Assembly (NCBI RefSeq): GCF_000153465.1
Contig: NZ_CH672387.1
Span: 107,214 to 150,158 of the forward strand
Length of the DNA: 42,945 nt
Direction: 5' to 3'
Source: Aurantimonas manganoxydans SI85-9A1
GTDB taxonomy: Bacteria > Pseudomonadota > Alphaproteobacteria > Rhizobiales > Rhizobiaceae
Shown here piece by piece: positions 3,492-32,649 of this stretch. The position numbers and the translations under genes are program-made. Numbering within the stretch: the stretch's first letter is position 1; the number at the start of each line of letters is the position of its first letter. The notes under the pieces are model-generated. The model did no database searches. It was not told the origin of the DNA and saw nothing but the letters and a program-made list of their open reading frames with translations.

Positions 3492-4865
3492 TCAGAACGT
3501 TTGCCGCGTTCCCAGAGCATCAACGAACAGTGACGGCGATCCGAGTTGTCCGCCCTTGAGAACCACCTGGAGTCCATCGAACTCCCGTGCGCGGCTGTGG
3601 CAGCGGCAGATCGGCGCTCCCTTGCCGAGCGGGTGCGCGATTTCCAGCGCCGTCACCGGCGACGCCTCAAGGACCCGCCCGGACGTATCGCCTCCCGCAA
3701 CGACGATCCGCTGCAGGCCAAGGCGCGGGACGGCCGTGGCGGCGATCCGGCCGAGCGCACGGCCGATGGAATCCTGGGCGTCCGAAAAGGAAATGTTGCG
3801 ATCGGCGGCCGTCCGCTGGAGGGCGGCGAAGGCCGGATCGTCGACGGTCCTGGCGGCAAAGACGATGACGCGGCCGCAGCGCTCGATCGCCGCGTCGACC
3901 GCCGTCTCGATCCTGGCGAGTTCAGTCGCCGCGGTCTCGGGGGCGATGGCCTGCACCACGTCGAGACGGATAGTTTCAAAGCCGCTCGCTTCGGCGATCT
4001 CGATCTGCTCGGCCGTGACCGGCGAGCAGCTGCCCGACAGCACCAGCAGGCGATCGACCGGCGGGACCGGCGCGAACGGGGCCGGGGTCTGAGCCAACAT
4101 CCCAGCCCGGTGCCAGTGCGCCACCAGCGCGTATTGCAGTCCCGAGGAGGACGCGCTGAACACGGGTTCGTCGCTGCCGTCCCAGACGAGCCGGCCGGCT
4201 TCGGCCTGCGTCATCTCGTCGGCGACATCGATGAAGGCAATCGTACCCGGCTTGTCGCGTACCCTGTCGGCGGCTTCGTCGGCGGTTCCGCCGGCGATCG
4301 CCGCGACGTCGATCGCGACAATGTCCCGTTCGGTCTGCGCGGCCAGATGCAGGCGCAGATCAGCTTCGCGCATGGGTGTCACGGGATGCCGCGACATCGT
4401 CGGATGCCGATCGATGCGATAGCGTGTACCGCCGGCGGCGGCGAAGAGATTGGCGAAAACCTGCCACCGGCCGAGTTGCGGGGCGCCGACGATCGACGGC
4501 GACCAGGGGCCGGCGACAAGGCTGTCGCCGATATCGATGGCGCGTCCGATCGAGCCGACGTCTGCGGCGGAATCGAAGGTCGAGCAAACCTTGTACTGGA
4601 GAATTCTGGGCGAAAGGTCGGCCAGCGCCCGGAACGGGCCCGGCAGGTTTTGGTCCATCCACTCCGGGCTTCGCGAGCGCGCGGTTCCGGCGATGCCGAC
4701 CACCGGATAGTCGGCGAAGCTGGCGAGATCCCGCGCGTTGGGCGTGCGGGTGAACAGCACGGTGCGCAGCCCGGCGAAGGCGGTGACCTCCATGGCATCG
4801 GTCGATCCGGTGAAGTCGTCTCCATAAAAGGCGAGGAGGACGCCGTCCGGCAATCCGCCCGTCAT
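3492..4865 (-). CDS. Four-carbon acid-sugar kinase (DUF1537; OtnK/OiaK-like)
   Basis: This 457-residue kinase belongs to the two-domain DUF1537 family, which phosphorylates acid sugars such as 3-oxo-tetronate, erythronate or 3-oxo-isoapionate at the terminal hydroxyl. Visible motifs are GDDFTGSTDA at 15-24 in the substrate domain, SGSCSPVT at 277-284 at the start of the nucleotide domain, GGDTSG at 391-396 and LKGGQLG at 436-442. The start at 4865 overlaps the RLP stop codon as ATGA, so the two are probably translationally coupled. It is the last gene of the TRAP/SDR/RLP operon. Pairing of this kinase family with an RLP is known from apionate catabolism (kinase OiaK with a decarboxylase or transcarboxylase RLP), which supports a 3-oxo acid sugar as substrate. 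The exact substrate cannot be read from sequence, so no symbol is given. Confidence 0.9.
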   Translation of the reverse strand: MTGGLPDGVLLAFYGDDFTGSTDAMEVTAFAGLRTVLFTRTPNARDLASFADYPVVGIAGTARSRSPEWMDQNLPGPFRALADLSPRILQYKVCSTFDSAADVGSIGRAIDIGDSLVAGPWSPSIVGAPQLGRWQVFANLFAAAGGTRYRIDRHPTMSRHPVTPMREADLRLHLAAQTERDIVAIDVAAIAGGTADEAADRVRDKPGTIAFIDVADEMTQAEAGRLVWDGSDEPVFSASSSGLQYALVAHWHRAGMLAQTPAPFAPVPPVDRLLVLSGSCSPVTAEQIEIAEASGFETIRLDVVQAIAPETAATELARIETAVDAAIERCGRVIVFAARTVDDPAFAALQRTAADRNISFSDAQDSIGRALGRIAATAVPRLGLQRIVVAGGDTSGRVLEASPVTALEIAHPLGKGAPICRCHSRAREFDGLQVVLKGGQLGSPSLFVDALGTRQTF

Positions 4866-6103
4866 GCGAACGTCTTCACGGCGACGGCCAGGTCGGGCGA
4901 GGCTGCGGCGGCTTCCTGCAACGGCACGCCCTGCATCGCGGCGTCCCAAGCTTCTCGCAGGGATCGCACCCCGGCGGCGATTCCCGAGGGATGCGCGACG
5001 ATGCCGCCGCCCGCGCAGTAGATGAGATCCGGCGACCCCAGATGCCGCCAGGTGCCCTCCGCCTGCTTGACGCTCTGTCCGGACGAGAAGACCGGCATCA
5101 CCACGTCCGGGCGGGCCGGGGACAGCGGTGTCAGGCACGCCTTAGCCGAAGCGACGACGCTGTCGTCCGGCTCCCAGAACTTGTTGGCCAGGCCGTTGAC
5201 ATGCATGTGGTCGACGCCGGCCAGCCGCCAGATCTTCTGCCAGGCGACATAGGACCAGCCGTTGTCCGGCGAGCGGCCGAGATAGCCCCAGCCATTGCGG
5301 TGCGCGTGGATCGGCAGGCGGGCATGCCGCCGCAGGGCAGTCAGGCCTGTCAGGCCGACACTGTTGAGGCTGACCATGACGCAGGTGCCGCCGGCCGCCT
5401 CGACCTGGTCGTGCCGCCGGAGCATCTCGTCGATCTCACCGGTCAGATTGACGGCATACATCACCTTGCGGCCGGTCCGCTCGGCATGGCGCGCGATCAC
5501 CGTCGTCACAGCCGCAAGCCGCTCCTCGAAGGGACAGATCGCACCGTCGGCCTGCAGTTCGTCGTCCTTGATGAAATCGATGCCGCCGTCGCAGAGCTGG
5601 TCCACCAATGCGGCCGTTTCGGCCGGGTTCAGGCCGATCGACGGCTTGATGATGGTGCCGATCACGGGACGATCCACAACGCCTGTCAGTTGCCGCGTTC
5701 CCTCCACGCCGAAGGCCGGACCGGGATAGCGGTCTGCGAAGGCTGGGGGCAGGCGCAGATCGACCAGCTTGAGTCCGGCGACCTCGCGGAGCTCGAAGAG
5801 ATTGCCGGCGAGGGTGGCCAGAAGGTTCGGCAGCGACGGCCCGACATTGGCAAGCGGCCAGGACAGGGTCATCCGATAGCTGCGCGGAGCTTCCCCAATC
5901 GCGCCCGGCAGCATCGGCAGACCGCTATCCTCGATCTCCTCCAGGCGATCGACCGTGGCGGCGGATCGTGCCTTCAGTTCCTCGCTCTCTCCGGGGATCG
6001 CGATGAATGTCCCCGAGGATTGCTCGCCGGCAATGATATCCGCGACACGATGCGGATCCCCAGCCGTTCTGAGGATGTATTCGGCGACGATCCGCTGATC
6101 CAT
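4862..6103 (-). CDS. RuBisCO-like protein (RLP), probable acid-sugar-phosphate decarboxylase
   Basis: This 413-residue protein has the RuBisCO large-subunit fold but is not a RuBisCO. Lys153 corresponds to K175, but K177 is replaced by Ser155 (motif IIKPSIGL). The metal/carbamate site is intact: Lys179, Asp181 and Glu182 in FIKDDE (K201, D203, E204). His268-Arg269 (H294, R295), His301 (H327), Lys308 (K334), Ser341 (S379) and the GGG at 365-367 are also present, and Asn101 matches N123. The usual Thr-Trp of the N-terminal domain is absent. Known RLPs act in methionine salvage (enolase, isomerase), or as tetritol-phosphate epimerases or 3-oxo-isoapionate-4-phosphate decarboxylase/transcarboxylase. 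The kinase neighbour argues for the last group. It is fourth-to-fifth in the operon, 24 bp after the SDR gene. Confidence 0.9.
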   Translation of the reverse strand: MDQRIVAEYILRTAGDPHRVADIIAGEQSSGTFIAIPGESEELKARSAATVDRLEEIEDSGLPMLPGAIGEAPRSYRMTLSWPLANVGPSLPNLLATLAGNLFELREVAGLKLVDLRLPPAFADRYPGPAFGVEGTRQLTGVVDRPVIGTIIKPSIGLNPAETAALVDQLCDGGIDFIKDDELQADGAICPFEERLAAVTTVIARHAERTGRKVMYAVNLTGEIDEMLRRHDQVEAAGGTCVMVSLNSVGLTGLTALRRHARLPIHAHRNGWGYLGRSPDNGWSYVAWQKIWRLAGVDHMHVNGLANKFWEPDDSVVASAKACLTPLSPARPDVVMPVFSSGQSVKQAEGTWRHLGSPDLIYCAGGGIVAHPSGIAAGVRSLREAWDAAMQGVPLQEAAAASPDLAVAVKTFA

Positions 6104-6127
6104 GTTTCCTCTCCGCAGTTCGTGAGA

Positions 6128-7087
6128 TCAGTGAGGGCGGGCGCCCTGCAGCCACGCGCGATAGTCGCGCAGGCCCTCGCGGATGTCGGCGAAGCGGGGC
6201 TCGAAACCCAGGCGCGCACGAGCCTTGGAGATGTCCAGCGGCGCACCGCGTTCGAAGAACAGGCCCGAGCCGAGCGTGACCTTGCTTTCGTGTCCGACGA
6301 TGTCGGCGACGTGACCGACAATGTCGCGATGGGCCACGGCGACACCGCTGGAAATGTTGAAGGCCTCACCTGACACATCCGCCGGAGCGTCGAGCAGAGC
6401 GACGACGCCGGCCGCCGTGTCGCGGACATGCGTCCAGTCGAGCGACTGGTCGCCGCCCTTCGGCGAATCTGCCTCGGTCGGACCCTCCAGCGGGCCGAAC
6501 ATCGCCTGGTAGAGCACGTGCATCCGCGACGGCAGCTTGCCCGGGCCGTAGACGAAATAGAGCCGCGCGTTGCGAACGTCGATTCCGTAGGTCTGCCCGT
6601 ATTGCAGTGCCAGCACCTCGTTCGACGCCTTGGTCGCTCCGTAGAGGTCGGTCACCTTGACCGGCAGGTCCTCGGTCTGGCCGCCGGCCTGGTCGCCATA
6701 GACGGCGCCGGAGCTGAGATTGATGAATTTCGGCACGCCGAAGATGCGGCAGGCCTCGATCACGTTCAGCATCCCGACCGTGTTGATCTGGATGTGGCGG
6801 AACGGCCGCTTGGCGAAGTTCGGACCGGCGATGACGGCGACGCCGAAGATGACGGCGTCGATCCGCCCTTCATAGGCGCGCATCCGTTCGAACAGGGTGT
6901 GGACATCGAGTACGTCGACGTTCTCGAAGGTCAGCCGGTCGCGATAGGGCTCGAGATAGTCGAGGCCCAATCCGTCGAGGCCGGCCGCGCCGAGATCGAA
7001 GATCACGACATCCTCGCCACGTGCTGCCAGATCATGGGAAATCCAGGACCCGACATGTCCTAGCCCGCCGAAGACGAGGGTTGCCAT
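6128..7087 (-). CDS. Extended SDR: NAD-dependent epimerase/dehydratase-type oxidoreductase
   Basis: This 319-residue protein has an extended-SDR Rossmann fold: GGLGHVG at 7-13 for NAD(P), Asp31 at the end of beta-2 favouring NAD, Ser125/126 with Tyr149-x3-Lys153 (YGATK) as the catalytic set, and a C-terminal substrate lobe. In sugar-acid operons this family includes D-erythronate 2-dehydrogenase (DenD) as well as uronate dehydrogenase and sugar epimerases. Here it most likely oxidises the imported sugar acid, or its lactone, before the kinase acts; this is inferred from position between the TRAP genes and the RLP. The start ATG at 7087 follows the DctM stop by 32 bp. Confidence 0.88.
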   Translation of the reverse strand: MATLVFGGLGHVGSWISHDLAARGEDVVIFDLGAAGLDGLGLDYLEPYRDRLTFENVDVLDVHTLFERMRAYEGRIDAVIFGVAVIAGPNFAKRPFRHIQINTVGMLNVIEACRIFGVPKFINLSSGAVYGDQAGGQTEDLPVKVTDLYGATKASNEVLALQYGQTYGIDVRNARLYFVYGPGKLPSRMHVLYQAMFGPLEGPTEADSPKGGDQSLDWTHVRDTAAGVVALLDAPADVSGEAFNISSGVAVAHRDIVGHVADIVGHESKVTLGSGLFFERGAPLDISKARARLGFEPRFADIREGLRDYRAWLQGARPH

Positions 7088-7119
7088 CAGAATGCTCCGT
7101 TTTGAAAAGTTGTCCGGGC

Positions 7120-8412
7120 TCAGTTCAGCAGAAGGTTCGGAACCGCGAGGACCAGCCAGGGCACGAAAGTGATCGCGATCAGCATCGCGAACAACGGAAT
7201 GTAGAAGGGGAGGATTTCCTTCACGAGGTGGCCGAAGGGAATGTCGGCCACCCGCTGCACGGTGAACAGAACCGTACCGACCGGGGGCGTCACCAGCCCG
7301 ATCATCAGGTTGAAGATCATCATCACGCCGAAATGCACCGGGTCGATCCCGTAGCTGACCACCAGCGGGGTCAGGATGGGCGTCAGCAGGAACAGCGCCG
7401 GCACCGAGTCGATGAAGCAGCCGACCAGCAGGATGAAGACGTTGAGGAGCGCCAGCAGCACATACTTGTTGTCGATGTTGGCTGCGAGGTAGTCGATGAT
7501 CTGCGAGGTGACCTGATAGCGCGCCAGAACCCAGGCATAGAGGGCGGAGCCGGCAATGATCACGAGGAGTGCCGCGGTGTCGATCGCGGTATCCTTGCAG
7601 ATCACCCAGAACTCGCGCACCGTGATGGTGCCATAGACCAGGAAGGCGATGAGGGTGCAGTAGACCACGGCAATCGCCGAGGCCTCGGTCGGCGTGAAGA
7701 TGCCGGACAAAATGCCCGCGATGATGATGATCGGCGTCAGGATTGGCAGGAAGCCCGCACTGCAGGCGGCGGCGATCTGACGAAGAGTCGCACGCTTGGC
7801 GATCGGATAGCCGCGCTTGTGCGACAGATAGGCGACGAGGGCCATCAGGCCGAGACCCATCAATACGCCAGGAACGATGGATCCGAGGAACACGGCGGCG
7901 ATCGAGACATTGGCGAGCGCGCCATAGATCACGGCAGGGATGCTCGGCGGAATGATCGGTCCGATGGTCGCCGAACTGGCAGTGACCGCCGCGCTGAAGC
8001 CGCGGTCGTAGCCGTCGCGCTCCATGGCCCGCATCTGCAGCGGGCCGAGGCCCCCCGCATCGGCGACGGCCGAGCCGGACATGCCTGCGAAGATCATGCT
8101 GGACAGGACGTTCACGTGGCCGAGGCCGCCGCGCAGATGCCCGACAAGCGAGCGGGCGATGTTGAAGACGCGGTCGGAAATGCCGGAGGCGTTCATCAGC
8201 CGGCCGATCAGCAGAAACGCGGGGATGGCGAGGAGGGTGAAGCTGTTGACGCCGTAGAGGGTACGCTGGGCGAGCATCTCGTAGGGAATGCTGTCGAAGC
8301 CACGTGTGGCTGCGAGCACCGAGATCGAGGCGCCGATCATCGCGAAGCCGACAGGCACGCCGATGAAGAGCAGAAGGAGAAGCGTGCCGAAGAGGGCGAG
8401 GAAAATGATCAT
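7120..8412 (-). CDS. dctM: TRAP transporter large permease, DctM type
   Basis: This 430-residue membrane protein has about a dozen hydrophobic segments and the conserved DctM features GMSGSAVADAGGLGPLQ near residue 115 and GLVTPPVGTVLF near 375. It is the sodium-coupled transport subunit that receives substrate from the periplasmic DctP and acts with DctQ. Length is normal for the family (about 425-430). Its ATG overlaps the DctQ stop codon (ATGA), as expected for subunits made in fixed ratio. The substrate is probably a sugar acid, given the downstream enzymes. Confidence 0.93.
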   Translation of the reverse strand: MIIFLALFGTLLLLLFIGVPVGFAMIGASISVLAATRGFDSIPYEMLAQRTLYGVNSFTLLAIPAFLLIGRLMNASGISDRVFNIARSLVGHLRGGLGHVNVLSSMIFAGMSGSAVADAGGLGPLQMRAMERDGYDRGFSAAVTASSATIGPIIPPSIPAVIYGALANVSIAAVFLGSIVPGVLMGLGLMALVAYLSHKRGYPIAKRATLRQIAAACSAGFLPILTPIIIIAGILSGIFTPTEASAIAVVYCTLIAFLVYGTITVREFWVICKDTAIDTAALLVIIAGSALYAWVLARYQVTSQIIDYLAANIDNKYVLLALLNVFILLVGCFIDSVPALFLLTPILTPLVVSYGIDPVHFGVMMIFNLMIGLVTPPVGTVLFTVQRVADIPFGHLVKEILPFYIPLFAMLIAITFVPWLVLAVPNLLLN

Positions 8413-8927
8413 GACATGCTGTCCGTCTGACCTGCGCCGCGGAAAGCGTCGGCGATGTCCTTGAGGAGGAGGGCGATCAGCATGATCAGACCGACCGCCT
8501 GGATCAGGTAGAGATTGGCGAAGGAGACCGGGATGGTGCTGGCGCTGACATTCTGGGTCCGGCCCATCATCTCGAAGGCGCCGACGACCACCAGAATGGC
8601 GATGGCTGCCGTCAGGACGTCGCCGAGAATGTCGAACCAGCGCCGCACGCGCGCCGACAGCAGGTCGAGCAGGACGGTGATCCTGATCTGCGCGCCGTAT
8701 CGCTGGGCGATGGCCGCGCCGAGAAAGATCTCGGCGATGAAGAGAAAGCGGGACGTCTCGTCGGTCCAGGGGACGCCGATGCCGAGTGCGTAGCGCGATG
8801 CCACCTGGATGAACATCACGACCAGCATGGCGATGAAGGCGAGGGTCATGACGACCTCGACGAACCGCCAGAAATAGCCTGCAAGTCTGTTCGGAAAGCC
8901 GCTGCTTCCCTGCTCAATCGACGCCAC
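8409..8927 (-). CDS. dctQ: TRAP transporter small permease, DctQ type
   Basis: This four-helix DctQ subunit has the family signature around VASRYALGIGVPWTDETSRFLF (after the first helix) and a last helix ending near KDIADAFRG. I chose the GTG at 8927 (172 residues) because a purine-rich GGGGGGAT precedes it by about six bases and it gives the usual short cytoplasmic N-terminus. An ATG at 8990 would add 21 residues that look untranslated and almost abut the dctP stop. Overlap with dctM is four bases. Confidence 0.88.
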   Translation of the reverse strand: MASIEQGSSGFPNRLAGYFWRFVEVVMTLAFIAMLVVMFIQVASRYALGIGVPWTDETSRFLFIAEIFLGAAIAQRYGAQIRITVLLDLLSARVRRWFDILGDVLTAAIAILVVVGAFEMMGRTQNVSASTIPVSFANLYLIQAVGLIMLIALLLKDIADAFRGAGQTDSMS

Positions 8928-9002
8928 CGCGCGATCCCCCCGAAACCGTTCAGTCGACGGCACGCCCGTCGCTGGACGGGCGTGCCGCATGCTAAGGATG
9001 CG

Positions 9003-9968
9003 TCAGTTCAGCTTGGACAGGACGTAGTCCCGGACCTCAGGTGCGAAGCCGTCCGCTATCTTGCGGATGGCCGGGGCCGCCTTGGCACGGAACGCGGCGA
9101 CGTCCGGCTCAACGACCTGCATGCCCTTCTCCTGGAGCTGCTCGTACAGCTTGGCCTCGTTGCCAGTGACCAGCTCGTCGCCCCAGGCAATTGCCTCGTC
9201 GACGGATTCCTGCAGCATCGCCCGGTCCTCCTCGGAGAGGCCCTGGTAGAAATCCTCGTTCATCAGCCAGTGAAAGAACGAATAGACGTGCTGCGTCTTG
9301 GCGACGTAGGACTGCACCTCGAAGAGCTTGCCCGACCAGATGTAGTCGACGGGATTTTCCTGCATGTCGATGACGCCGGTCTGCAGGGCGGTGTAGACCT
9401 CCGGCCAGGCGATCGGGCTCGGCAGGGCGCCGATTTCCGTCCAGATCTGCACCCAGGGGGCGATTTCCGGCACCCGCATGCGAACGCCCTGGATGTCGTC
9501 CGGAGTCTTCACCGGGTTCTTCGAGGTGAGGTTGCGCGGGTTGCGGATCGACAGGCCGACCAGCTCCAGATTGCCGGTCTCGCGGACGGCCTGGCGCAGC
9601 TGCTCGCCCATCTCGCCTTCATAGACCTTCTTGGCGTCGGCGCTGGCATCGAACACGAAGGGCAGGTCAGCGCCCGCATATTTCGGCGCGTACAGGGTCA
9701 TCGGCATCGAGCCGCCCAGTGCGATCTGGTACTCGCCGCTGCTGGCGCCCTCGAGGTGATCGCGCTCGCCGCCGACTTCGGTGCCAAGCAGCGTGACCGT
9801 GAAGCGACCCTCGGATTTCTCCTCGATGTTCTTCTTCAGTCGCTCACCGACCTGGAACATCTCGTGGCCGGGCTCGACGTGGAGCGCGATGGCGATGTCC
9901 TCGGCAAGCGCCGGAAAGGCAACGCTGGCAGCGCCGAGAACCAGCGCCGCGAACAAAGATTTCTGCAT
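9003..9968 (-). CDS. dctP: TRAP transporter substrate-binding protein, DctP family
   Basis: This 321-residue periplasmic binding protein has a 22-residue signal peptide ending ALA. The DctP hallmark Arg, which forms the salt bridge to the ligand carboxylate, is probably in GVRMRVPE (Arg163 or Arg165); Arg145 in NPRNLTS is also typical. The conserved WPEVYTALQTGVIDMQENP (188-206) is present. The ligand is thus an organic acid; together with the kinase and RLP, a sugar acid. The ATG at 9968 has GGGAGG seven bases upstream. It is the first gene of the operon, and the FadR-type operator lies 63 bp upstream of this start. Confidence 0.93.
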   Translation of the reverse strand: MQKSLFAALVLGAASVAFPALAEDIAIALHVEPGHEMFQVGERLKKNIEEKSEGRFTVTLLGTEVGGERDHLEGASSGEYQIALGGSMPMTLYAPKYAGADLPFVFDASADAKKVYEGEMGEQLRQAVRETGNLELVGLSIRNPRNLTSKNPVKTPDDIQGVRMRVPEIAPWVQIWTEIGALPSPIAWPEVYTALQTGVIDMQENPVDYIWSGKLFEVQSYVAKTQHVYSFFHWLMNEDFYQGLSEEDRAMLQESVDEAIAWGDELVTGNEAKLYEQLQEKGMQVVEPDVAAFRAKAAPAIRKIADGFAPEVRDYVLSKLN

Positions 9969-10030
9969 GAAGAACCTCCCAATTGGCGAGTCGGACCGCA
10001 TCCCTCCCGGATGGCGGCTCCGCTGCAAAC

Positions 10031-10041
10031 TGGTCCGACCA
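10031..10041. promoter_or_regulatory. FadR/GntR-type operator TGGTCCGACCA
   Basis: A perfect 5-1-5 palindrome, TGGTC-C-GACCA, lies between the divergent dctP and GntR genes. It matches the FadR-subfamily consensus TNGTNNNACNA at every fixed position. It is 63 bp upstream of the dctP start and 103 bp upstream of the regulator start, so one bound dimer could control both. Binding is inferred from consensus and location. Confidence 0.75.
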
Positions 10042-10143
10042 TCAGACGTTCCAGCCAGCTGATGACTTTCTGGCGCATGCTGACTAGGCTTGTCAACGGG
10101 CGCATTCATCGCTCTATCGATCCTGGCAAAAGGGGAGAGCGCA

Positions 10144-10899
10144 GTGGTCGCTGACACCGAGAAGGCCAAGCCGGCCAGACAGAGACGTGCGGGGAGGATC
10201 GTGCGGCGGCGGCGCATGCACGAGGATCTCGTGGACATGCTGGCGACCGACATTCGCGCCGGGGTCTACGAGATGGGCGACGCGCTACCCTCCGAACGCG
10301 ACCTCATGGATGAGTTCGGCGTCTCGCGGCTCACGGTGCGCGAGGCGACCGCCGCGCTGGAAAGCAAGGGCTTCATCGAGACCCGGCCGGGCACGCGCGC
10401 CCGTGTTTGCGGGCCCCGGCCGGACTTTCTCCTCGGCATGCTGTCGGAGGCCGCGGCCTTCCATCTGACCGAACCGGGCGGCCTGCGCTCCTTCATGGAG
10501 ATCCGGGCGATCGTCGAGACGGGCGTCGCCCGAATTGCCGCGGAGCGCATTGCCAAAGACCAGATCGCCGGACTTCGGGCTGAACTGGAGCGGAACCGTA
10601 ATGCCGTGGGCGACATGGACGAGTTCGGGCGCACCGACGTCGAGTTTCACTCCGCGATCGCCCGGGTCGTGGAAAACCCGATCATCGACGCGTTCTTCGT
10701 GGCAATCGACGAGTGGCTCCGGGAGGTCCGCCGGACGAGCCTGCTGAACAGTGGTCAGATGGAGACAGCCTACGCTGCCCATGCCCGCATCTTTGCGGCT
10801 CTCGAAGCCCATGATCCCGATCGGGCGGCTGCCGAGATGCGAGGGCACCTCGACCAACTGTCCCAGATCTACCCGCCCCCGGAGGGTCATCGGACCTGA
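10144..10899 (+). CDS. FadR-subfamily GntR regulator of the RLP/TRAP operon
   Basis: This 251-residue regulator has an N-terminal winged HTH (about residues 26-88, including LPSERDLMDEFGVSRLTVREA) and a C-terminal all-helical FCD domain. The FCD metal ligands appear to be kept: Asp and His in DVEFHSAI, His in AHARIF and His in RGHLDQL. FCD regulators usually bind a carboxylate through this metal and then leave DNA. The GTG at 10144 has GGGGAG eight bases upstream; an upstream TTG in the same frame at 10090 lacks such a site. It diverges from the dctP operon and is most likely its substrate-responsive repressor. Confidence 0.9.
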   Translation: MVADTEKAKPARQRRAGRIVRRRRMHEDLVDMLATDIRAGVYEMGDALPSERDLMDEFGVSRLTVREATAALESKGFIETRPGTRARVCGPRPDFLLGMLSEAAAFHLTEPGGLRSFMEIRAIVETGVARIAAERIAKDQIAGLRAELERNRNAVGDMDEFGRTDVEFHSAIARVVENPIIDAFFVAIDEWLREVRRTSLLNSGQMETAYAAHARIFAALEAHDPDRAAAEMRGHLDQLSQIYPPPEGHRT

Positions 10900-11051
10900 C
10901 TTCGAGCGGGTAGGCGGGCTTAGAGACATGTTCGTCCTAAGCAGCGCGAGAAGGTGGCTGACGCCTCGGAAGGCGAGCGACTGGCGACAGGCATCCAGCC
11001 GCAAGCAGTCGGCGCGCTTGGCTCATAGGCTGGGGTCATCCGGCCGAGGCG

Positions 11052-11065
11052 CTCGCTTGAGCGAG
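11052..11065. repeat. Short inverted repeat CTCGCT-TG-AGCGAG
   Basis: A perfect 6-bp inverted repeat with a two-base centre lies in the 261-bp gap between the GntR gene and the Gate-domain gene, 95 bp before the latter. It could be an operator half-site pair; a two-base loop makes it a poor RNA hairpin. The rest of the gap shows nothing I can name. Confidence 0.3.
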
Positions 11066-11160
11066 GTCCAGCCGCCACCGCAAGGCTTGGCTGATCGTTC
11101 CTTCACTTGGCATGGGCGGCAGTCGGGGCCTCTCATGACCCTTTTCCGGGACGACCGCCG

Positions 11161-12138
11161 ATGCCGCTTCTGAACCGGGCGCTTCGCAGGACGCAGGAGA
11201 CGCTCGCCATCTACTGGATGCTCGCCCGGATCGTGGTGCCGATCACGATCCTCACCGAGATCTTGTCGCGGATGGGGGTGATCGAGGCCATGGCTCCCGC
11301 ATTCGGGCCGGTGATGCGAGTCTTCGGCCTGCCCCCGGAACTGGGCCTTGCCTGGTTGAGCGGGCTCTTGGTCGGGATCTGGGGGGCAATTCCCTTGATC
11401 TACGTGCTGGTGCCGGTGGCCGATCTGAGCGTCGGCGACATCACCGTCTTCTCGGCGCTTCTGCTGTTCGCCCATGGCCTGCCCATCGAGCAGAAGATCA
11501 TCCAGAAGGCCGGGCCGGCGCTGATCGTCACGACGGTCCTCCGCCTCCTCGGTGGTGTCCTCTACGCCTTCCTGCTGCACCGCTTGCTCATGGCGACCGG
11601 TTGGCTGGCGTCCCCGGTGAATCCTGCCTGGATACCGATGAACGTCGAGCCAGGCTGGGGGGACTTCCTTCTCGGCCTGCTGGAGACGATGGCCACGATG
11701 CTTGTCATCTTCCTGGCTCTGTCATGGATGCTGGACATCCTGAAGGCCACCGGGCTGCTGGACCTCATGATGCGAGGACTGGCGCCCCTCCTGCGGCTCG
11801 CCGGAATACGCGGGGAGGCGGGAGAGTTCACGGCGGTCGGCCTGCTTCTTGGGATCTCCTATGGCGGCGGCCTGCTGATCCGCGAGGCGCGATCGGGCGC
11901 GATTTCCCCGCGCCAGATATTTCTCGCCTGCGTCTTCATGGGCTTTGCCCATGGCGTCATCGAAGACACGCTGGTCGTCGTCGCGCTCGGCGCCGATGCG
12001 ACGGGCGTCCTCGTCGGCCGCCTGGTCTTTGCCGTCGCGGCGACGGCTGCGATTTCGGTTCTGATTGGACTGATGTCGGAAAGAACCTTCGCCAGATGGG
12101 CCTTCCGCAGCGGGCCTCGACCAATCCTGGATATCTAG
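11161..12138 (+). CDS. Nucleoside recognition (Gate) domain membrane protein
   Basis: This 325-residue integral membrane protein has about eight hydrophobic segments arranged as two similar halves, each with a Gate (nucleoside-recognition) type module: a first half around GLLVGIWGAIPLIY and a second around GLLLGISYGGGLLIREA. The FMGFAHGVIEDTL segment near 260 is typical of the family. Gate proteins occur in nucleoside transporters, FeoB and spore proteins, and the stand-alone ones have no settled function. The ATG at 11161 has only a weak GGGA upstream. It follows the GntR gene after 261 bp on the same strand and may be separately transcribed. Confidence 0.75.
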   Translation: MPLLNRALRRTQETLAIYWMLARIVVPITILTEILSRMGVIEAMAPAFGPVMRVFGLPPELGLAWLSGLLVGIWGAIPLIYVLVPVADLSVGDITVFSALLLFAHGLPIEQKIIQKAGPALIVTTVLRLLGGVLYAFLLHRLLMATGWLASPVNPAWIPMNVEPGWGDFLLGLLETMATMLVIFLALSWMLDILKATGLLDLMMRGLAPLLRLAGIRGEAGEFTAVGLLLGISYGGGLLIREARSGAISPRQIFLACVFMGFAHGVIEDTLVVVALGADATGVLVGRLVFAVAATAAISVLIGLMSERTFARWAFRSGPRPILDI

Positions 12139-14101: not shown

Positions 14102-15010
14102 TCATTCGCCAGCGGTTTCGGCGGCGAGGCGGGCGCTGGTTTCGGCGTGATCGCAGAAGGCGGCGAGGATGGGGGAGGTGTCGCTGGCCCGCCAGCCGAG
14201 GCAGACCTGCACCGTGGGCGGTGTATCGGCGATCTCCACGTAAGCGACGCCCGGAATGTTCAGGCTGCGCGCAACCTCGGGCACGATCGCCACGCCCATG
14301 CCGGCGCTGACGAGGCCGATCATCGTGTGGATCTGGGTGGCATATTGCTCGACCCGCGGGACGAAGCCGGCCTTTTCGCACATGCCGATGATGCGGGCGT
14401 AGAAGAGCGGGCTCTTGCGCTGGGTGAAGAGAATGAAGCCGTCCTCGGAGAGGTCGCGCAGATGCAGGCGGTCGGTGGCGGCGAGGCGATGGTCGTGCGG
14501 CAGCGCCACCACGAAGCGCTCCTCGCGCAAGGGCCGGGCGCGCAGGCTGGGATCCGAGATCGGCGGGCGCAGGATGCCGACGTCGATCTGGCCGTCGCGC
14601 AGCGCCGCCAGCTGCTCCTGGATGGTCATCTCGAACAGTTCGAGATCGACGCGCGGGAAAGCCAGGCGGAACCGGCGCAGGACGAGTGGCGTGACGCCGT
14701 AGGTGGAGGAGTGGATGAACCCCACCGACAGCCGGCCTTCCTGCCCTGCCTCGACCCGTCGCACCTCCTTGGCTGCCTGTTCCAGATCCGCCAGAATCCG
14801 GTAGGAGCGCTCCAGGAACATCCGGCCGGCCGGGGTCAGGGTCACGATGCGCTGATTGCGATTGAGCAAGGTCGCCTGCAGCCGCTCCTCAAGCTGCTGG
14901 ATCTGCCGGGTCAGGGCCGGCTGGGCAATGTGAAGGCGGCGGGCGGCACGGCCGAAATGCAGCTCCTCGGCGACGCAGACGAAGGATCGGAGCAGGCGCG
15001 TCTCGACCAT
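14102..15010 (-). CDS. LysR-family transcriptional regulator
   Basis: This 302-residue regulator has an N-terminal winged HTH (MVETRLLRSFVCVAEELHFG through LTPAGRMFLE, residues 1-65) and a full LysR substrate-binding domain with the usual GMGVAIVPE near 250. The HTH pattern (FGRAARRLHIAQPALTRQIQ) resembles the BenM/CatM branch that senses aromatic or dicarboxylic acids. The ATG at 15010 fixes the standard N-terminus. It diverges from the RraA/Tct cluster, with a LysR-type box in the 102-bp gap, and is most likely its activator. Confidence 0.92.
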   Translation of the reverse strand: MVETRLLRSFVCVAEELHFGRAARRLHIAQPALTRQIQQLEERLQATLLNRNQRIVTLTPAGRMFLERSYRILADLEQAAKEVRRVEAGQEGRLSVGFIHSSTYGVTPLVLRRFRLAFPRVDLELFEMTIQEQLAALRDGQIDVGILRPPISDPSLRARPLREERFVVALPHDHRLAATDRLHLRDLSEDGFILFTQRKSPLFYARIIGMCEKAGFVPRVEQYATQIHTMIGLVSAGMGVAIVPEVARSLNIPGVAYVEIADTPPTVQVCLGWRASDTSPILAAFCDHAETSARLAAETAGE

Positions 15011-15031
15011 CAGTGATGCCCTGTCGCTATC

Positions 15032-15048
15032 ATTGAAGTGCCAACAAT
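15032..15048. promoter_or_regulatory. LysR-type box ATTG-N9-CAAT
   Basis: An interrupted palindrome with the T-N11-A core (T at 15034, A at 15046) lies in the gap between the divergent LysR gene (start 15010) and the RraA gene (start 15113). A second small dyad, CAAT-GT-ATTG, overlaps its right half. Closeness to the LysR start fits autoregulation plus activation of the cluster. Assigned from consensus and place only. Confidence 0.6.
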
Positions 15049-15112
15049 GTATTGGACGGAATGACCGGCCTCGGTCAAGCTCCCCGTGATGAAGAGCGGC
15101 AGGGAGGCCGGA

Positions 15113-15787
15113 GTGGCAGCAGGATTTCGTGTACTGAACGGGCACGTGCGCAGTGACCGATCGCTGGTGGAGGCGTTCGCGCAGATTCCGTCGGCGATCA
15201 TCAGCGACAATCTGAACCGCATGGTCGCCGCCGGACCGTCGGTGCGTCCGATGCACAAGGGGGGCACGCTGGCCGGCACGGCGCTGACCGTGAAGACCCG
15301 GCCCGGCGACAATCTGATGATCCACAAGGCGGCCGACATCGCCCAGCCCGGCGACGTGATCGTCGTCGATGCGGGCGGCGACCTCACCAACGCGCTGATC
15401 GGCGAGCTGATCATCAGCCATGCCCGTTCGCGCGGGGTCGTCGGCTTCGTCGTCAACGGCGCGGTGCGCGACATGGACGTGATCGCGGTCGACGACTATC
15501 CGGTCTATGGCGCCGGCGTCAGCCATCGCGGTCCCTACAAGGACGGCCCGGGCGAGGTGAACGTGCCGATCGCGCTGGACGGCATGGTGATCTCGCCGGG
15601 CGACATCGTCATCGGCGATCTCGACGGCGTCGTGTGCATTCCCCGCGAGGAGGCGGAGAGCGTGCTGGCGGCGTCGCGGGCTCAGCAGGAGAAGGAAGCC
15701 GGCATTCAGGCGGCTATCGCGGGCGCCGGATGGGATCGCGCCTGGGTGGACGAGATCCTGAAGGCCAAGGGCTGCGAAGGCGTGTGA
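15113..15787 (+). CDS. RraA-family protein (HMG/CHA aldolase-like)
   Basis: This 224-residue protein belongs to the RraA/demethylmenaquinone-methyltransferase-like superfamily. It keeps the active-site pattern of 4-hydroxy-4-methyl-2-oxoglutarate (HMG) and 4-carboxy-4-hydroxy-2-oxoadipate aldolases: a glycine-rich GGDLTNALIGEL and the Arg-Asp pair in NGAVRDMD, which hold pyruvate and the divalent metal. True RraA (RNase E inhibitor) lacks the aldolase pair, so an aldolase or oxaloacetate decarboxylase activity is more likely. I prefer GTG 15113, which has GGGAGG five bases upstream; ATG 15089 or GTG 15086 would add eight or nine residues. It is the first gene of the cluster, 65 bp before tctC. 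Confidence 0.85.
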   Translation: MAAGFRVLNGHVRSDRSLVEAFAQIPSAIISDNLNRMVAAGPSVRPMHKGGTLAGTALTVKTRPGDNLMIHKAADIAQPGDVIVVDAGGDLTNALIGELIISHARSRGVVGFVVNGAVRDMDVIAVDDYPVYGAGVSHRGPYKDGPGEVNVPIALDGMVISPGDIVIGDLDGVVCIPREEAESVLAASRAQQEKEAGIQAAIAGAGWDRAWVDEILKAKGCEGV

Positions 15788-15852
15788 GGAGGGATGGGGC
15801 GCCGTCCGCGGCGGCCCGTCGGAAGACCAATCAGCACAAGAGGGAGGACATC

Positions 15853-16815
15853 ATGAAATTCGTCAAGACGATTGCCGTCACCATGGGGCTCGCCGCCGCC
15901 GCGTTGGCGTCGCCGGCCAGCGCCGAATGGAAGCCGGAGCGCCCGATCGAGATCATCGTCGGCTTCGCGCCCGGCGGCGGCACCGACCAAACCGCCCGAC
16001 TGATCGCCTCGGCCGCGCAGGAATTCTTCCCCGTGCCGCTGGTGGTGGTGAACCGCCCGGGCGCATCCGGCACGCTGGCCGCCGAGACCGTCGCCAAGGC
16101 CGAGCCCGACGGCTACACGCTGCTCGTCGCCGGCGGCAGCGAGAGCACCTCGGTGCCCAACCATCGCGAGATTTCCTACAGCCTCGACGATTTCCGCGGC
16201 ATCCTGCGGGTCAATCGCGAGCACATGGTGATCGTCACGAAGCAGGGCAGTGGCCTCGACAGCGTCGAAGCGGTGGTCGAGGCGGCCAAGGCCGATCCGG
16301 GCAAGCTCGCCTACGCGTCCTCCGGTCCTGCCGGCATCCTGCATTCGGCCTTCCTGGTGTTTGAGAAGAAGGCCGGTATCCAGATCCAGCACGTGCCCTA
16401 TCAGGGCGGCGCGCCGGCGCTTGCGGCCCTGCTCGGCGGTCATGTCGACATGGCGATCATCACGCCGGGCGACGCCGCGGCGCAGGTCGAGGCCGGCAAT
16501 GTCAACGCCATCGCCACGACCTCTGACCGGGCCGAGCAGCTGCCCGACGTACCGTCGCTGACCGAGGCTGGCTATGACGTCGATCTGGAGAACATGAAGG
16601 GGCTCGTCGCCCCGGCCGGCATCCCGGACGAAGTGGCCGAATATCTGCAGGACCGCTTCACCAAGGCGATCGAGTCCGACACCTTCAAGACGCTGGCCGA
16701 GCGCGGCAACATCACGCCGGGCTATCTGAACGGCGCCGATTTCGAGAAGGCAATGCGCGACATGTCGGATTCGATCGCCGACGCCATGGGCGACACGCCG
16801 AAGACTGCCCAATGA
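15853..16815 (+). CDS. tctC: Tripartite tricarboxylate transporter binding protein, TctC/Bug family
   Basis: This 320-residue periplasmic protein has a 24-residue signal peptide ending ASA. The Bug fold markers are present: IEIIVGFAPGGGTDQTAR (ligand loop), VVNRPGASGTLAAE, and HVPYQGGAPALAALLGGHVDMAI. These proteins bind carboxylates through water-mediated contacts in the FAPGGGTD and PGASG loops. It delivers substrate to TctAB, whose genes follow directly (tctB overlaps the stop by four bases). The RBS GGGAGGA is five bases before ATG. Confidence 0.93.
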   Translation: MKFVKTIAVTMGLAAAALASPASAEWKPERPIEIIVGFAPGGGTDQTARLIASAAQEFFPVPLVVVNRPGASGTLAAETVAKAEPDGYTLLVAGGSESTSVPNHREISYSLDDFRGILRVNREHMVIVTKQGSGLDSVEAVVEAAKADPGKLAYASSGPAGILHSAFLVFEKKAGIQIQHVPYQGGAPALAALLGGHVDMAIITPGDAAAQVEAGNVNAIATTSDRAEQLPDVPSLTEAGYDVDLENMKGLVAPAGIPDEVAEYLQDRFTKAIESDTFKTLAERGNITPGYLNGADFEKAMRDMSDSIADAMGDTPKTAQ

Positions 16816-17276
16816 CAGCCACACGGGTTGTCGCCATCGTCTGCGGTCTGGCCTCCGTCTACTTCCTGGCGATCCTCGTCCCGGAAGTAGGAGCCAGCGC
16901 CGCTGCGATGGGAACCGGCGATTTCTATTCGGTGGGGCCGACGGCCCTGCCGAACTTCGCCGGGGCGGTGACGCTGCTCCTGAGCGTCGGCGTCTTCGCC
17001 ACCAGCGGCCCGGCTGCGGCCGAGGGCGATCGCCGCTTCGACCGCGGGCTCGGCGCAGGCCTCGTCTTCACCGTCATGCTGGTGGTCTACGCCATCGCCA
17101 TGCCCTCGATCGGCTTCCTGGCCGCCTCGGTGCTGTTCATGGGAGCGGTGTTCCTCGTCTACCGCCCCGCCAGCTGGTTCATCGCCCTGGTCCTGACGCT
17201 CGCCGTTCCGGTGCTGGTCGATCAGGTGCTGCGCAAGCTCTTCCTGATCCCGCTGCCGTCCGGGGCGTGGTTCTAA
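16812..17276 (+). CDS. tctB: Tripartite tricarboxylate transporter small subunit, TctB
   Basis: This 154-residue protein has four predicted hydrophobic helices (starting near residues 4, 50, 78 and 120), the layout of the TctB family. It partners TctA as the small membrane subunit. Its ATG overlaps the tctC stop (ATGA), and tctA starts 19 bp after its stop. Sequence conservation in TctB is low; the call relies strongly on context. Confidence 0.88.
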   Translation: MTATRVVAIVCGLASVYFLAILVPEVGASAAAMGTGDFYSVGPTALPNFAGAVTLLLSVGVFATSGPAAAEGDRRFDRGLGAGLVFTVMLVVYAIAMPSIGFLAASVLFMGAVFLVYRPASWFIALVLTLAVPVLVDQVLRKLFLIPLPSGAWF

Positions 17277-17294
17277 CCACCCGAAGGGGTATCA

Positions 17295-18812
17295 ATGGAC
17301 CCGTTGTTGCAGGCCTTCTGGGGCTTGATGGAGCCGGTCACCCTGCTCACCCTGCTCGTCTCGGTGACGGTGGGGCTGATCATCGGCGCCATTCCCGGCC
17401 TCTCGGTCAATATCGCGGTGGCGTTGGCCGTGCCGCTGACCATCTTCATGCCCATGGACCAGGCGCTGGCGACGCTGATCGGCCTTTATGGCGCCGGCAT
17501 CTTCGGCGGCTCGATCTCGGCGATCCTGCTCAACGCGCCGGGCACCCCGGCGTCCGCGGCGACCATCTTCGACGGCTATCCCATGGCCCAGCAGGGGCTG
17601 GCGACCAAGGCGCTGCGGATCTCGCTGATCGCCTCGGCCTTCGGCTCGATCTTCAGCATCGTCCTGCTGGTGCTCCTCGCCCCGCAACTGGCGAATTTCG
17701 CGCTGCGCTTCGGGCCGGTGGAAATCGCTTCGCTGCTGTTCTTCACCTTCCTGATCATCGGCATCCTGTCCGGCAACTCCCTGATGAAGGGGCTGCTGTC
17801 CGGCGCGATCGGCATGCTGCTGGCCACCGTCGGCACCGATCCCATGGTCGGCACGCCGCGCTTCACCTTCGGCTCGACGGCGCTGATGGACGGGCTGACC
17901 TACGTGCCGTTGCTGGTCGGCCTGTTCGCCGTGGCGGAAATCATCGAGGAGGCCACCCGCCGCTTCTCCCAGGGCACGCGCAAGTTCGACCTTGGCGACG
18001 AGAACGTGGAGGCCAACCGCCTGCGCTGGACCGAGTTCAAAGGCATGCTCATGCCGATGACCCGCGCCTCGGCGATCGGCTCGGCCATCGGCATCATGCC
18101 CGGTATCGGCGCCACGATCGCGTCGTTCATGTCCTATGCCGACGCCAAGCGGTCGCTCAACAAGGACAACACCTTCGGCAAGGGCGACCCGCGCGGCGTC
18201 GCCGTCTCGGAAAGCGCCAACAATGCCGTCGTCGGCGCGACCTTCATCCCGACCCTGGCGCTGGGCGTGCCCGGCGACGCGGTCACCGCGATCCTGCTCG
18301 GGGCGCTCGTCCTGCAGGGCGTGACGCCCGGACCGCTGATCTTCATCACCTCGCCGGACATCGTCTACACGATCTATTTCGCGCTGCTGTTCGCTACGCT
18401 CCTGATGGTCGCGATCGGCTATTTCGCCGTGCGGCCGCTGGCGATGACGCTGCGCATCCCGAAGATCTACCTGATGCCCTGCGTCGCGCTGGTGTGCGTG
18501 GCCGGCAGCTATGTCACCCGCAACAACCTCATGGACATCTATGTGATGCTGGGGGCGGGCGTGCTCGGCTTCATCTTCAACCGGACCGACATCCCGGTTG
18601 CGCCGCTGCTCATCACCTTCATCATCACGCCGCCCTTCGAACAGGCCCTGCGGCAGGCGCTCACCCGGTCCCAGGGATCGTTCGAGCCGTTCCTGACCAA
18701 TCCCGTCTCGCTGACCCTCGGCGTGGCGGCGCTCGCCCTGTTCGTCCTCGCCGCCTACCGCAGCCGGCGCCAGGGAACGGTACCGCCAGTCGAAAGGACA
18801 CAGAACCCATGA
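17295..18812 (+). CDS. tctA: Tripartite tricarboxylate transporter large subunit, TctA
   Basis: This 505-residue protein is the large transport subunit. It has about twelve hydrophobic segments and the clear TctA signature IIGAIPGLSVNIAVALAVPL followed by GLYGAGIFGGSISAILLNAPGTPASAAT, with a repeat of the IPGxxA pattern near 250 (GIMPGIGATIASF). Length matches the family. The protein ends in ATGA overlap with the next dehydrogenase gene, so transport and catabolism are on one message. Confidence 0.95.
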   Translation: MDPLLQAFWGLMEPVTLLTLLVSVTVGLIIGAIPGLSVNIAVALAVPLTIFMPMDQALATLIGLYGAGIFGGSISAILLNAPGTPASAATIFDGYPMAQQGLATKALRISLIASAFGSIFSIVLLVLLAPQLANFALRFGPVEIASLLFFTFLIIGILSGNSLMKGLLSGAIGMLLATVGTDPMVGTPRFTFGSTALMDGLTYVPLLVGLFAVAEIIEEATRRFSQGTRKFDLGDENVEANRLRWTEFKGMLMPMTRASAIGSAIGIMPGIGATIASFMSYADAKRSLNKDNTFGKGDPRGVAVSESANNAVVGATFIPTLALGVPGDAVTAILLGALVLQGVTPGPLIFITSPDIVYTIYFALLFATLLMVAIGYFAVRPLAMTLRIPKIYLMPCVALVCVAGSYVTRNNLMDIYVMLGAGVLGFIFNRTDIPVAPLLITFIITPPFEQALRQALTRSQGSFEPFLTNPVSLTLGVAALALFVLAAYRSRRQGTVPPVERTQNP

Positions 18813-31749: not shown

Positions 31750-32649
31750 TCAGACGAATTCGCGGATCTGCTCCATGGCGATCGCCGTGGCGGCCGAACG
31801 GTTCTCGACGCCGAGCTTGCGGAAAATCGTCTCCAGATGCTTGTTCACCGTCCGCACGCTGAGCTTTAGGATGTCGGCAATGTCCTGGTTGGACTTGCCG
31901 CGCGACAGCCACAGCAGCACCTCGGCCTCGCGCGGCGAGATCGGCAGTTTCGCATTGAGGGACGCGATCAGCGTCGCGTCGCTGGCGACCTGCGAGACCC
32001 GCAGCAGGAACTCGCCGTCCCCTGCCTCGCCGAGGAAGGCGAAGCTCAGCCCGGTGCCGGTGTCCGTCGCCGATGCACGGCCCTGGCGCAGGCTGGCGAG
32101 GATGGTCTTCAGGACGCCTGCGGCGATCGGACCCTCAGCGGCCTCCAGAATGTGGCGGCGGGCCCATGGCGTCGTCCAGAGAACTTCGCCCGACGCGTCG
32201 ATGGCAAAGAGATGCCGACCGGCGCTGTCGAGGGCAAGCCGAGCCGAACGGGTCTTGCGGGCATTCGCCTGGTGGACGCGCATGCGGGCGAAGACCTGCT
32301 CGATGACGACGGGCTTGGTGACGTAGTCGACACCGCCGGCCTCGAAGGCCTCAAGCACGTGCTCGGTCTCGCTGAGCCCGGTCATGAAGATTACCGGAAT
32401 GTCGGCCAGACGGCTGTCGGCCTTGATCTGGCGGGTGGTCTCGAACCCGTCGGTGCCGGGCATGACGGCATCCATCAGGATGATGTCGGGGATCGTTCGG
32501 CGGGCGATGGCGAGTGCCCGCGACCCGCTGGCCGCCACGAGTACTGTCATGCCCTCGTCCTCCAGCGCCGTGCGCAACAGGCTGATCGTGTCGGGCGAAT
32601 CGTCGACCACGAGGACGGTGGTGCGGTGGCCGCCGCGTTCCGCGATCAT
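31750..32649 (-). CDS. Response regulator with REC and LuxR-type HTH domains
   Basis: This 299-residue regulator has a receiver domain (acidic pocket Asp16-Asp17, phospho-acceptor Asp60 in ILMDAVMP, Lys112 in YVTKP). A middle region of about 110 residues has no motif I can name but ends like a PAS or sensor linker. A GerE/LuxR HTH (LSPREAEVLLWLSRGKSNQD onward, about 233-280) ends the protein. The ATG overlaps the kinase stop (4 bp), so the pair is co-transcribed. Its likely targets are the divergent Urt/Fmd promoter and its own operon. Confidence 0.92.
   Translation of the reverse strand: MIAERGGHRTTVLVVDDSPDTISLLRTALEDEGMTVLVAASGSRALAIARRTIPDIILMDAVMPGTDGFETTRQIKADSRLADIPVIFMTGLSETEHVLEAFEAGGVDYVTKPVVIEQVFARMRVHQANARKTRSARLALDSAGRHLFAIDASGEVLWTTPWARRHILEAAEGPIAAGVLKTILASLRQGRASATDTGTGLSFAFLGEAGDGEFLLRVSQVASDATLIASLNAKLPISPREAEVLLWLSRGKSNQDIADILKLSVRTVNKHLETIFRKLGVENRSAATAIAMEQIREFV

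Follow-up and report, generated by a model that had tools for sequence, protein, structure and literature searches.

An operon joining an extended dehydrogenase to a RuBisCO-like protein and a DUF1537 kinase in Aurantimonas manganoxydans: a candidate route for sugar-acid decarboxylation

How a sugar acid could be made ready for a RuBisCO-like protein (RLP) when neither ApnO nor the tetronate enzymes OtnI and OtnC stand beside it is the question raised by a six-gene operon of Aurantimonas manganoxydans SI85-9A1. The operon lies in a stretch of 42,945 bases, called here the window, from a genome of 4.33 Mb, and encodes a tripartite ATP-independent periplasmic (TRAP) transporter, an extended short-chain dehydrogenase/reductase (SDR), an RLP and a DUF1537 kinase. 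The original prediction, made from the sequence alone, described these genes as closely packed on the minus strand, with ATGA overlaps at the dctQ/dctM and RLP/kinase junctions and with none of the three enzymes just named among them. That description holds: each gene name is backed by Pfam, both junctions are read as ATGA, the remaining gaps measure 12, 32 and 24 bases from the coordinates, and the gene content bears out the absence of OtnI, OtnC and ApnO. Beyond the six listed genes, the span given to the operon, 3492-10899, covers a GntR/FCD regulator that runs in the opposite direction. The features are the following.

9003..9968, minus strand: dctP, TRAP solute-binding protein of 321 residues (Pfam PF03480, 220 bits)
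8409..8990, minus strand: dctQ, TRAP small permease (Pfam PF04290, 91 bits)
7120..8412, minus strand: dctM, TRAP large permease (Pfam PF06808, 396 bits; TIGR00786, 422 bits, cut-off 268)
6128..7087, minus strand: extended SDR (SDRe) of 319 residues (Pfam PF01370, 125 bits)
4862..6103, minus strand: RLP of 413 residues (Pfam PF00016, 222 bits)
3492..4865, minus strand: DUF1537 sugar-acid kinase of 457 residues, OiaK-like (Pfam PF07005 and PF17042)
10031..10041, no strand: operator-like palindrome TGGTC-C-GACCA, in the gap separating dctP from the regulator gene
10144..10899, plus strand: divergent GntR/FCD regulator (Pfam PF00392 and PF07729)

The operon is probably a sugar-acid catabolic one, and its existence, gene content and conservation are confirmed. 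The same order of TRAP, SDR, RLP and kinase genes is found again in Aurantimonas coralicida (locus L010), Jiella pacifica (L011) and a further member of the family (L102), and rearranged forms occur in three more genomes (L103, L104 and L107). The nearest named relatives by RLP, among the matches listed, are Aurantimonas (86%) and Jiella (72%). In 63 of 86 RLP-kinase pairs the two genes could overlap by exactly 4 bases, a count favoured by picking the kinase start nearest to -4.

From the gene content, its conservation, the phylogeny, the catalytic residues and the exchange for OtnK and OtnC described below, we infer a substrate, an oxidised position and a series of reactions. The TRAP transporter would import a small tetronate-type hydroxy acid, with a four-carbon backbone and possibly branched at C2, and the extended SDR would oxidise one of its hydroxyls, most likely that at C3 and with NAD, giving the 3-oxo acid directly and bypassing the isomerase or ApnO. 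The OiaK-like kinase would phosphorylate O4, and the RLP, with a carbamylated lysine and Mg2+ as in RuBisCO, would decarboxylate the 3-oxo-acid 4-phosphate through an enediolate to a ketose phosphate, which for an unbranched tetronate would be dihydroxyacetone phosphate (DHAP). This scheme of import, oxidation, phosphorylation and decarboxylation has about an even chance of being right. The earlier claim that the RLP decarboxylates a keto-acid phosphate in an undescribed route stands in its first part, decarboxylation being the best-supported reaction, but not wholly in its second, since RLP decarboxylation of a 3-oxo-acid phosphate has been described for the apionate pathway (Carter 2018, as cited in PMC6302742). 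What is unusual here is the enzyme that would feed the RLP, namely the SDR.

To which RLPs, then, does this one belong? As anticipated, it is not a methionine-salvage protein: the enolase models score far under their cut-offs (NF007095, 190 bits against 409; TIGR03332, 159 against 513.6), which rules out MtnW, with which it has the superfamily in common, and no salvage gene is among the operon's six. The known OiaX pathway is ruled out as well, the RLP lying below the cut-off of the OiaX model (NF042437, 452.7 bits, cut-off 700) and a gene above it sitting elsewhere in the genome. In all, the genome has three RuBisCO-superfamily genes, which are the RLP of the window, this OiaX (798 bits, cut-off 700) and a third at C1:560144-561196 (L091), taken from its sequence for a form I large subunit and used as outgroup.

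The relatives were gathered by a scan of 84,980 species genomes, of which the best 80 of at least 550 relatives were taken; with plasmid and genome loci added, these made 93 RLP rows, labelled by their tblastn neighbours within 6.5 kb (ApnO 40, none 28, SDRe 9, SDRc5 8, SDRc 8). Labels were edited by hand in a few rows: L069 (32% SDR match, ApnO nearer) and L004, L007, L028 and L030 (ApnO farther off in the cluster) were relabelled to ApnO, L064 to none, L101 was named OiaX, and L022 (partial) and L098 (a duplicate of L102) were dropped. L056 and L008 were kept as none despite an ApnO 7 to 9 kb off, which is inconsistent with the four rows relabelled for a farther ApnO, and some of the rows labelled none are short contigs. 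L005 and L009 carry an SDR label since their own SDRs served as references. The SDRc labels, at 29-47% identity, are weak, classical SDRs being common; the SDRc5 labels in the clade described next are strong, with 66-69% identity and, in seven of seven, a distance to the RLP match of 28 to 58 bases. Six plasmid rows and the genome's own RuBisCO completed a first, quick tree of 98 rows (ApnO 48, none found 23, SDRc5 8, SDRc 8, SDRe 7, VOC 2, OiaX 1, RuBisCO 1), and a careful tree was made from 83 rows, 15 of the 98, among them close copies, partial rows and the RuBisCO row, being omitted.

The window RLP falls in a clade of 14 rows (bootstrap 100 and Shimodaira-Hasegawa-like approximate likelihood-ratio test, SH-aLRT, 98 in the careful tree; SH-aLRT 96 in the quick one), which consists of six SDRe rows, seven Burkholderiales with an adjacent classical SDR, and L012, whose classical SDR, 47% alike, lies 3 kb away on the opposite strand. 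None of the 14 stretches has an ApnO match, and in both trees the clade is nested among ApnO-partnered RLPs. This placement supports counting the RLP with the apionate-type RLPs; it stands among ApnO-partnered proteins that are not OiaX, whose assignment to OiaC is by elimination, in trees that hold no characterised OiaC.

Window residues 27, 32, 101, 153, 176, 179, 181, 182, 268, 269, 301 and 308 are identical in 14 of 14 rows of the SDR clade and in 48 of 48 ApnO-labelled rows. Their counterparts in RuBisCO we take to be E60, T65, N123, K175, D198, K201, D203, E204, H294, R295, H327 and K334, the numbers after E204 being assigned by motif. The RuBisCO catalytic set kept in the window RLP (K153, K179, D181, E182, H268, R269, H301 and K308) is also found in the genome's own RuBisCO, and hence is not specific to the OiaC type, and residue 42 is the only position that separates SDR-clade from ApnO-labelled RLPs at the thresholds used. 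Compared with the window RLP, the genome's OiaX has D for E at position 27, G for N at 101 and C for S at 340, and it departs from that protein at 299 and 301 (Q for H) too; since this OiaX belongs to a different RLP family, the family of the window RLP would by elimination be the decarboxylase (OiaC) type.

The same residues bear on an alternative in which the RLP would be a transcarboxylase/hydrolase of the OiaX type, or an oxygenase of the hamamelose type giving 3-phosphoglycerate and glycolate. The RuBisCO catalytic lysines are kept, and both activities have been reported for RLPs: OiaX is the transcarboxylase/hydrolase of the D-apionate pathway (PMC6302742), and the D-hamamelose pathway of Ochrobactrum anthropi is reported to employ an RLP oxygenase and to end in those two products (Kim 2018, as cited in PMC8914248 and PMC10176493). 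With the OiaX system the operon shares the RuBisCO superfamily and the DUF1537 kinase, but its RLP reaches only 453 of 700 bits on the OiaX model and the genome's true OiaX departs from it at the five positions above; with the hamamelose pathway, which serves a branched sugar, it shares the RLP, and nothing in the operon suggests oxygenation. The exchange for OtnC, moreover, indicates decarboxylation, so that this alternative appears quite unlikely.

Decarboxylation being preferred, the next point is the enzyme proposed to supply the keto acid. The SDR lies under the cut-off of all 16 NCBIfam models that it matches (galE, 87 bits against 262), including DenD (NF043036, 36.1 bits against 325), as which it is ruled out by model score. 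Its nucleotide-loop residues G7, G10 and G13, as well as D31, S125, Y149 and K153, are invariant in eight of eight aligned sequences, that of the window included. An Asp at a position like that of D31 goes with NAD rather than NADP, and the protein is probably an NAD-dependent sugar-acid dehydrogenase. It is rare, being found at the limits used in 4 of 151 genomes of the family, 2 of 397 of the order and 1 of 385 of the class, its own included each time, and in one plasmid record; at most five candidates per genome were scored in the order and class searches. Among 17 pattern matches in viral contigs none was a relative of the SDR.

These searches were made with the SDR alone, without requiring an RLP, and led to six loci, namely the operon itself, L102, L103, L104, L107 and L106; two further SDR loci, L010 and L011, were met through the RLP scan, so that they are not independent of RLP presence. 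In five of the six, the TRAP-SDR genes have an RLP and a kinase no more than 6 kb away, the RLP of L103 and L104 standing beyond the regulator and an OtnC relative to them. The sixth, L106 of Paroceanicella profunda, has an FCD regulator, OtnK (550 bits, cut-off 350) and OtnC (317 bits, cut-off 250) divergent from DctPQM-SDR, and within 9 kb neither an RLP nor an annotated OtnI. Since RLP and kinase are here swapped for OtnK and OtnC beside the same TRAP-SDR genes, a 3-oxo-tetronate-type intermediate and its decarboxylation are indicated. In L107 the same TRAP-SDR genes adjoin an RLP and a kinase that their respective trees place with ApnO-labelled rows and not in the SDR clade, so the pairing of SDR and RLP seems to have arisen at least twice, by separate recruitment.

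The kinase of the window scores 551.4 bits with the OiaK model (NF042436, cut-off 700) and 166.8 with the OtnK model (NF043035, cut-off 350), reaching neither cut-off. In the kinase tree the partners of the RLP clade's seven SDRe-type rows group together (SH-aLRT 100), and those of its seven Burkholderiales form a separate clade, not joined to them. These scores matter for a reading in which the SDR would oxidise C2 instead, the kinase would act on the 2-oxo acid, and the RLP would enolise the product, shift the keto group and then decarboxylate, as an RLP analogue of the three-step 2-OtnK/2-OtnC bypass. DenD, itself an SDR, acts at C2, and enzymes of the RuBisCO superfamily enolise; both facts count for this reading, together with the SDR's weak DenD match of 36 bits and the OtnI-like gene that adjoins the RLP in L103. 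Oxidation at C2 is also given in PMC10580937, and an OtnI-free route through 2-oxo-threonate in PMC12540250. Nevertheless, the best models of the kinase, OiaK and OtnK, are those of kinases of 3-oxo acids, and in L106 the same SDR stands with OtnK and OtnC in a locus where OtnI is not annotated within 9 kb. This reading is thus unlikely, and direct formation of the 3-oxo acid is kept as the preferred reading.

The enzymes that the operon lacks have counterparts elsewhere in the genome. An OtnK (566 bits, cut-off 350) and an OtnC (302 bits, cut-off 250) are paired at C1:2255215-2257070, no dehydrogenase or isomerase being recognised among the examined neighbours of the pair, and an OtnI-like gene at C1:2960047 falls under the OtnI cut-off. 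OiaX belongs to a separate apiose-type cluster with an ABC transporter, a Gfo/Idh dehydrogenase, an ApnL-like lactonase (605 bits, cut-off 750), an OiaK-like kinase (468 bits, cut-off 700) and ApnO. The last is the genome's single PF16896 match and lies 2.9 Mb from the operon, which rules out an ApnO hidden near it. The original prediction named, as grounds for refuting it, missing enzymes turning up elsewhere and co-regulated, and only the first half of this is borne out: OtnK-OtnC, the OtnI-like gene and ApnO do occur elsewhere, but the operator-like palindrome, described below, has no exact copy in the two stretches scanned, L112 (19.5 kb, with the OtnK-OtnC pair) and L101 (19.9 kb, with the OiaX cluster). 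In the same way, the proposal that a dehydrogenase takes the place of ApnO is supported by an SDR clade in which no row has an ApnO label, but the enzymes called missing do exist in the genome.

Could ApnO from elsewhere feed the kinase and RLP, the operon assisting apionate catabolism in trans and the SDR having another role? ApnO is present in the genome of the window and in five of the seven SDR genomes searched, all but G022 and G918. However, the ApnO cluster has an OiaX and a kinase of its own, and SDR, RLP and kinase remain together across genera. Nor is there an ApnO match in the genome of L010, a metagenome-assembled genome of unstated completeness, or in G022 (98% complete). As G022 also has no OtnK over the cut-off, the SDR is the only visible source feeding the RLP there. 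Service in trans is consequently highly improbable. OtnK exceeds its cut-off in five of the seven genomes, not in G022 and G919, and OtnI in none of them, with weaker matches in all seven.

Several points weigh against decarboxylation by the RLP of an acid oxidised at C3 by the SDR. An OtnC over the cut-off is found in seven of seven SDR genomes and lies beside the SDR operon in L011, L103 and L104; with this second decarboxylase, the RLP looks redundant unless the two act on different acids. OtnC occurs in 51 of 151 genomes of the family, and the seven SDR genomes are related, so that its constant presence amounts to a lead rather than a test; both other genomes of the window's genus in the family sample have OtnC and not this SDR. 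G022 and G919 have a single kinase matching the OtnK model, the one in the SDR operon, and next to it lies their single OtnC above the cut-off, so this kinase probably serves OtnC too; a kinase shared in this way makes a 3-oxo-tetronate-type acid the likeliest intermediate, and the RLP not the only possible decarboxylase. In L103 an OtnI-like TIM barrel upstream of the RLP, and adjoining it, would fit oxidation at C2. The structure model of the SDR is poor (predicted local distance difference test score, pLDDT, 43.9), and gave no fold search and nothing on regiochemistry. The OiaC identity of the ApnO-partnered RLPs would follow by elimination, from a tree that holds no characterised RLP sequence, and since hydrolysis (OiaX) and oxygenation (hamamelose) have been reported for RLPs too, decarboxylation is not the sole option.

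The presence of both OtnC and RLP would make sense if the substrate were branched at C2, such as a 2-C-hydroxymethyl- or 2-C-methyl-tetronate, which the SDR would convert to 3-oxo-isoapionate or an analogue for an RLP acting like OiaC, OtnC, where present, handling unbranched tetronates that enter by the same transporter. By its structure, the apionate RLP substrate is a branched acid. That substrate is reported in PMC6302742. The catalytic residues do not separate SDR-partnered from ApnO-partnered RLPs, and residue 42 is the one position that does so at the thresholds used. Clusters combining tetronate and apionate enzymes also exist: L061 and L085 join OtnK-OtnC to RLP-kinase-ApnO, and L061 has in addition a xylose-isomerase-like TIM barrel. 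Against a branched acid stand L106, where only tetronate enzymes accompany the same SDR, and the fact that no natural source of such an acid is shown for these habitats. This reading is accordingly doubtful, the preferred acid being one of the tetronate kind.

The transporter agrees with a small acid of this kind. In an alignment with 4P47, counted by eye, R145, R165, N205, W188 and E68 of DctP (AlphaFold model, pLDDT 90.7) correspond to the five positions that PMC11668362 lists for TRAP binding sites of the pantoate/erythronate type; pantoate and erythronate as ligands of such proteins are given there and in PMC5812351. These residues fit ligands of the pantoate or erythronate type; they agree with a small hydroxy acid and do not single one out. 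As a further point on the opposite side, they are common to many TRAP proteins and not specific, and the best Foldseek matches of DctP are TRAP binding proteins of several kinds, sialic-acid binders included.

Control of the operon is likely exerted by the divergent GntR/FCD protein. Its longest open reading frame (ORF) runs from 10090, and comparison with L104 makes GTG at 10144 the most likely start. A related regulator adjoins the SDR operon in L010, L011, L102, L103 and L104, and in L106 as an FCD protein; none was found beside the SDR operon of L107. At 10031-10041 the region between regulator and dctP carries TGGTCCGACCA. The exact TGGTCNGACCA occurs once in the window, and with one mismatch two sites are found against 1.0 expected. 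This number is unremarkable, so the case for an operator rests on place and conservation: the longer GTCTGATGGTCNGACCAGTT is conserved at the same place in L010, L011 and L102, and L106 has two similar half-sites; no such site is present in L103, L104 and L107. Promoter and terminator sites were no more numerous than in shuffles.

Other loci of the window can be noted here. At 15086-18812 lies another acid-uptake locus close to the operon, where an RraA-like aldolase gene precedes those of TctC and TctA, parts of a tripartite tricarboxylate transporter, and a LysR gene lies on the opposite strand inside ORF 14102-15526. A Mutator-family transposase at 38-766 is partial against its Pfam model (positions 6-233 of 379), and at 32646-37607 a large sensor kinase with a receiver domain is divergent from an adjoining Peripla_BP_5 binding protein.

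How far does the operon depart from what is known? With the D-apionate/OiaC system (ApnO-OiaK-RLP) it shares the ATGA-coupled RLP and DUF1537 kinase, the RLP family (by elimination), the catalytic residues and the expected 3-oxo-acid-phosphate substrate of the RLP, whereas it has no ApnO, ApnL-type lactonase or Gfo/Idh dehydrogenase, its keto acid probably comes from the extended SDR, and its RLP lies in a separate clade without ApnO label. The tetronate pathway leads from DenD or LtnD through OtnI and OtnK to OtnC (Zhang 2016; steps as given in PMC12540250 and PMC10580937). A dehydrogenase, a DUF1537 kinase, decarboxylation and a possible DHAP end product are alike in both, and in L106 the same TRAP-SDR module stands with OtnK and OtnC; in the window, however, the SDR is not DenD, the kinase is not OtnK, the RLP replaces the class II aldolase OtnC, and OtnI is absent from the operon. 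No description of an SDR-RLP-DUF1537 pathway was met in the literature searched, most subscription papers lying outside its reach, and none of an ApnO-free dehydrogenase-fed RLP clade, of the OtnK/OtnC swap or of SDR-RLP-kinase sets in freshwater Burkholderiales that lack a recognised transporter. The abstract of Zhang 2016 is said to note neighbourhoods of TRAP, DUF1537 and RuBisCO-superfamily genes, with that pair unassigned, which makes the gene grouping as such less novel.

RLP and kinase also stand with other partners. TRAP, VOC/glyoxalase-like, RLP and DUF1537 kinase genes with a LacI regulator form operons in L146, on Paroceanicella pD4M1A, and in L149 of Azospirillum argentinense, where the VOC protein may be another kind of front enzyme for RLP and kinase; the strain of L106 bears this VOC-type RLP (L146) on another plasmid. 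In L040 the RLP is followed directly by ApnO, in a stretch without a DUF1537 kinase match. Upstream of RLP and kinase, L068 of Polaromonas sp. P2-4 has at 7091-11218 an aldehyde dehydrogenase piece and a classical SDR, and also an isocitrate/isopropylmalate-dehydrogenase-like piece of 223 residues, seemingly incomplete. On a plasmid of the haloarchaeon Halalkalicoccus sp. FCH27 (L150), an RLP-kinase pair adjoins a GntP permease gene and an ApnO-like gene annotated with the phosphogluconate dehydrogenase C-terminal domain, so the module is also present in archaea. Freshwater Burkholderiales (L013, L014, L016 and L020, the first and third being short contigs) have SDR, RLP and kinase side by side; nothing nearby matches the reference transporters, and their substrate may be made inside the cell. 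Their flanks look like housekeeping genes, with a deaminase/hydrolase upstream and an LD-carboxypeptidase downstream (by Pfam in L020 only).

A broader proposal can be offered tentatively, as a possibility short of the probable: RLP and ATGA-coupled kinase would form a plug-in decarboxylating end-piece, served by ApnO, an extended SDR, a classical SDR or a VOC protein as front enzyme, the SDR of Aurantimonas and Jiella making 3-oxo acids directly. RLP and OtnC would then divide the work by C2 configuration or branching, OtnC taking one configuration of 3-oxo-tetronate 4-phosphate and the RLP either the other (L-erythronate/D-threonate series) or a C2-branched acid. If this were true, tetronates would be broken down to DHAP by an RLP pathway that a dehydrogenase feeds.

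Few RLP reactions are known, and the clade with its seemingly dehydrogenase-fed RLP offers a set of three enzymes open to assay on simple sugar acids. The naturally occurring exchange of RLP and kinase for OtnK and OtnC at one TRAP-SDR operon makes the decarboxylase hypothesis directly testable and, if it is true, RuBisCO-type chemistry would be a general CO2-releasing module in sugar-acid breakdown.

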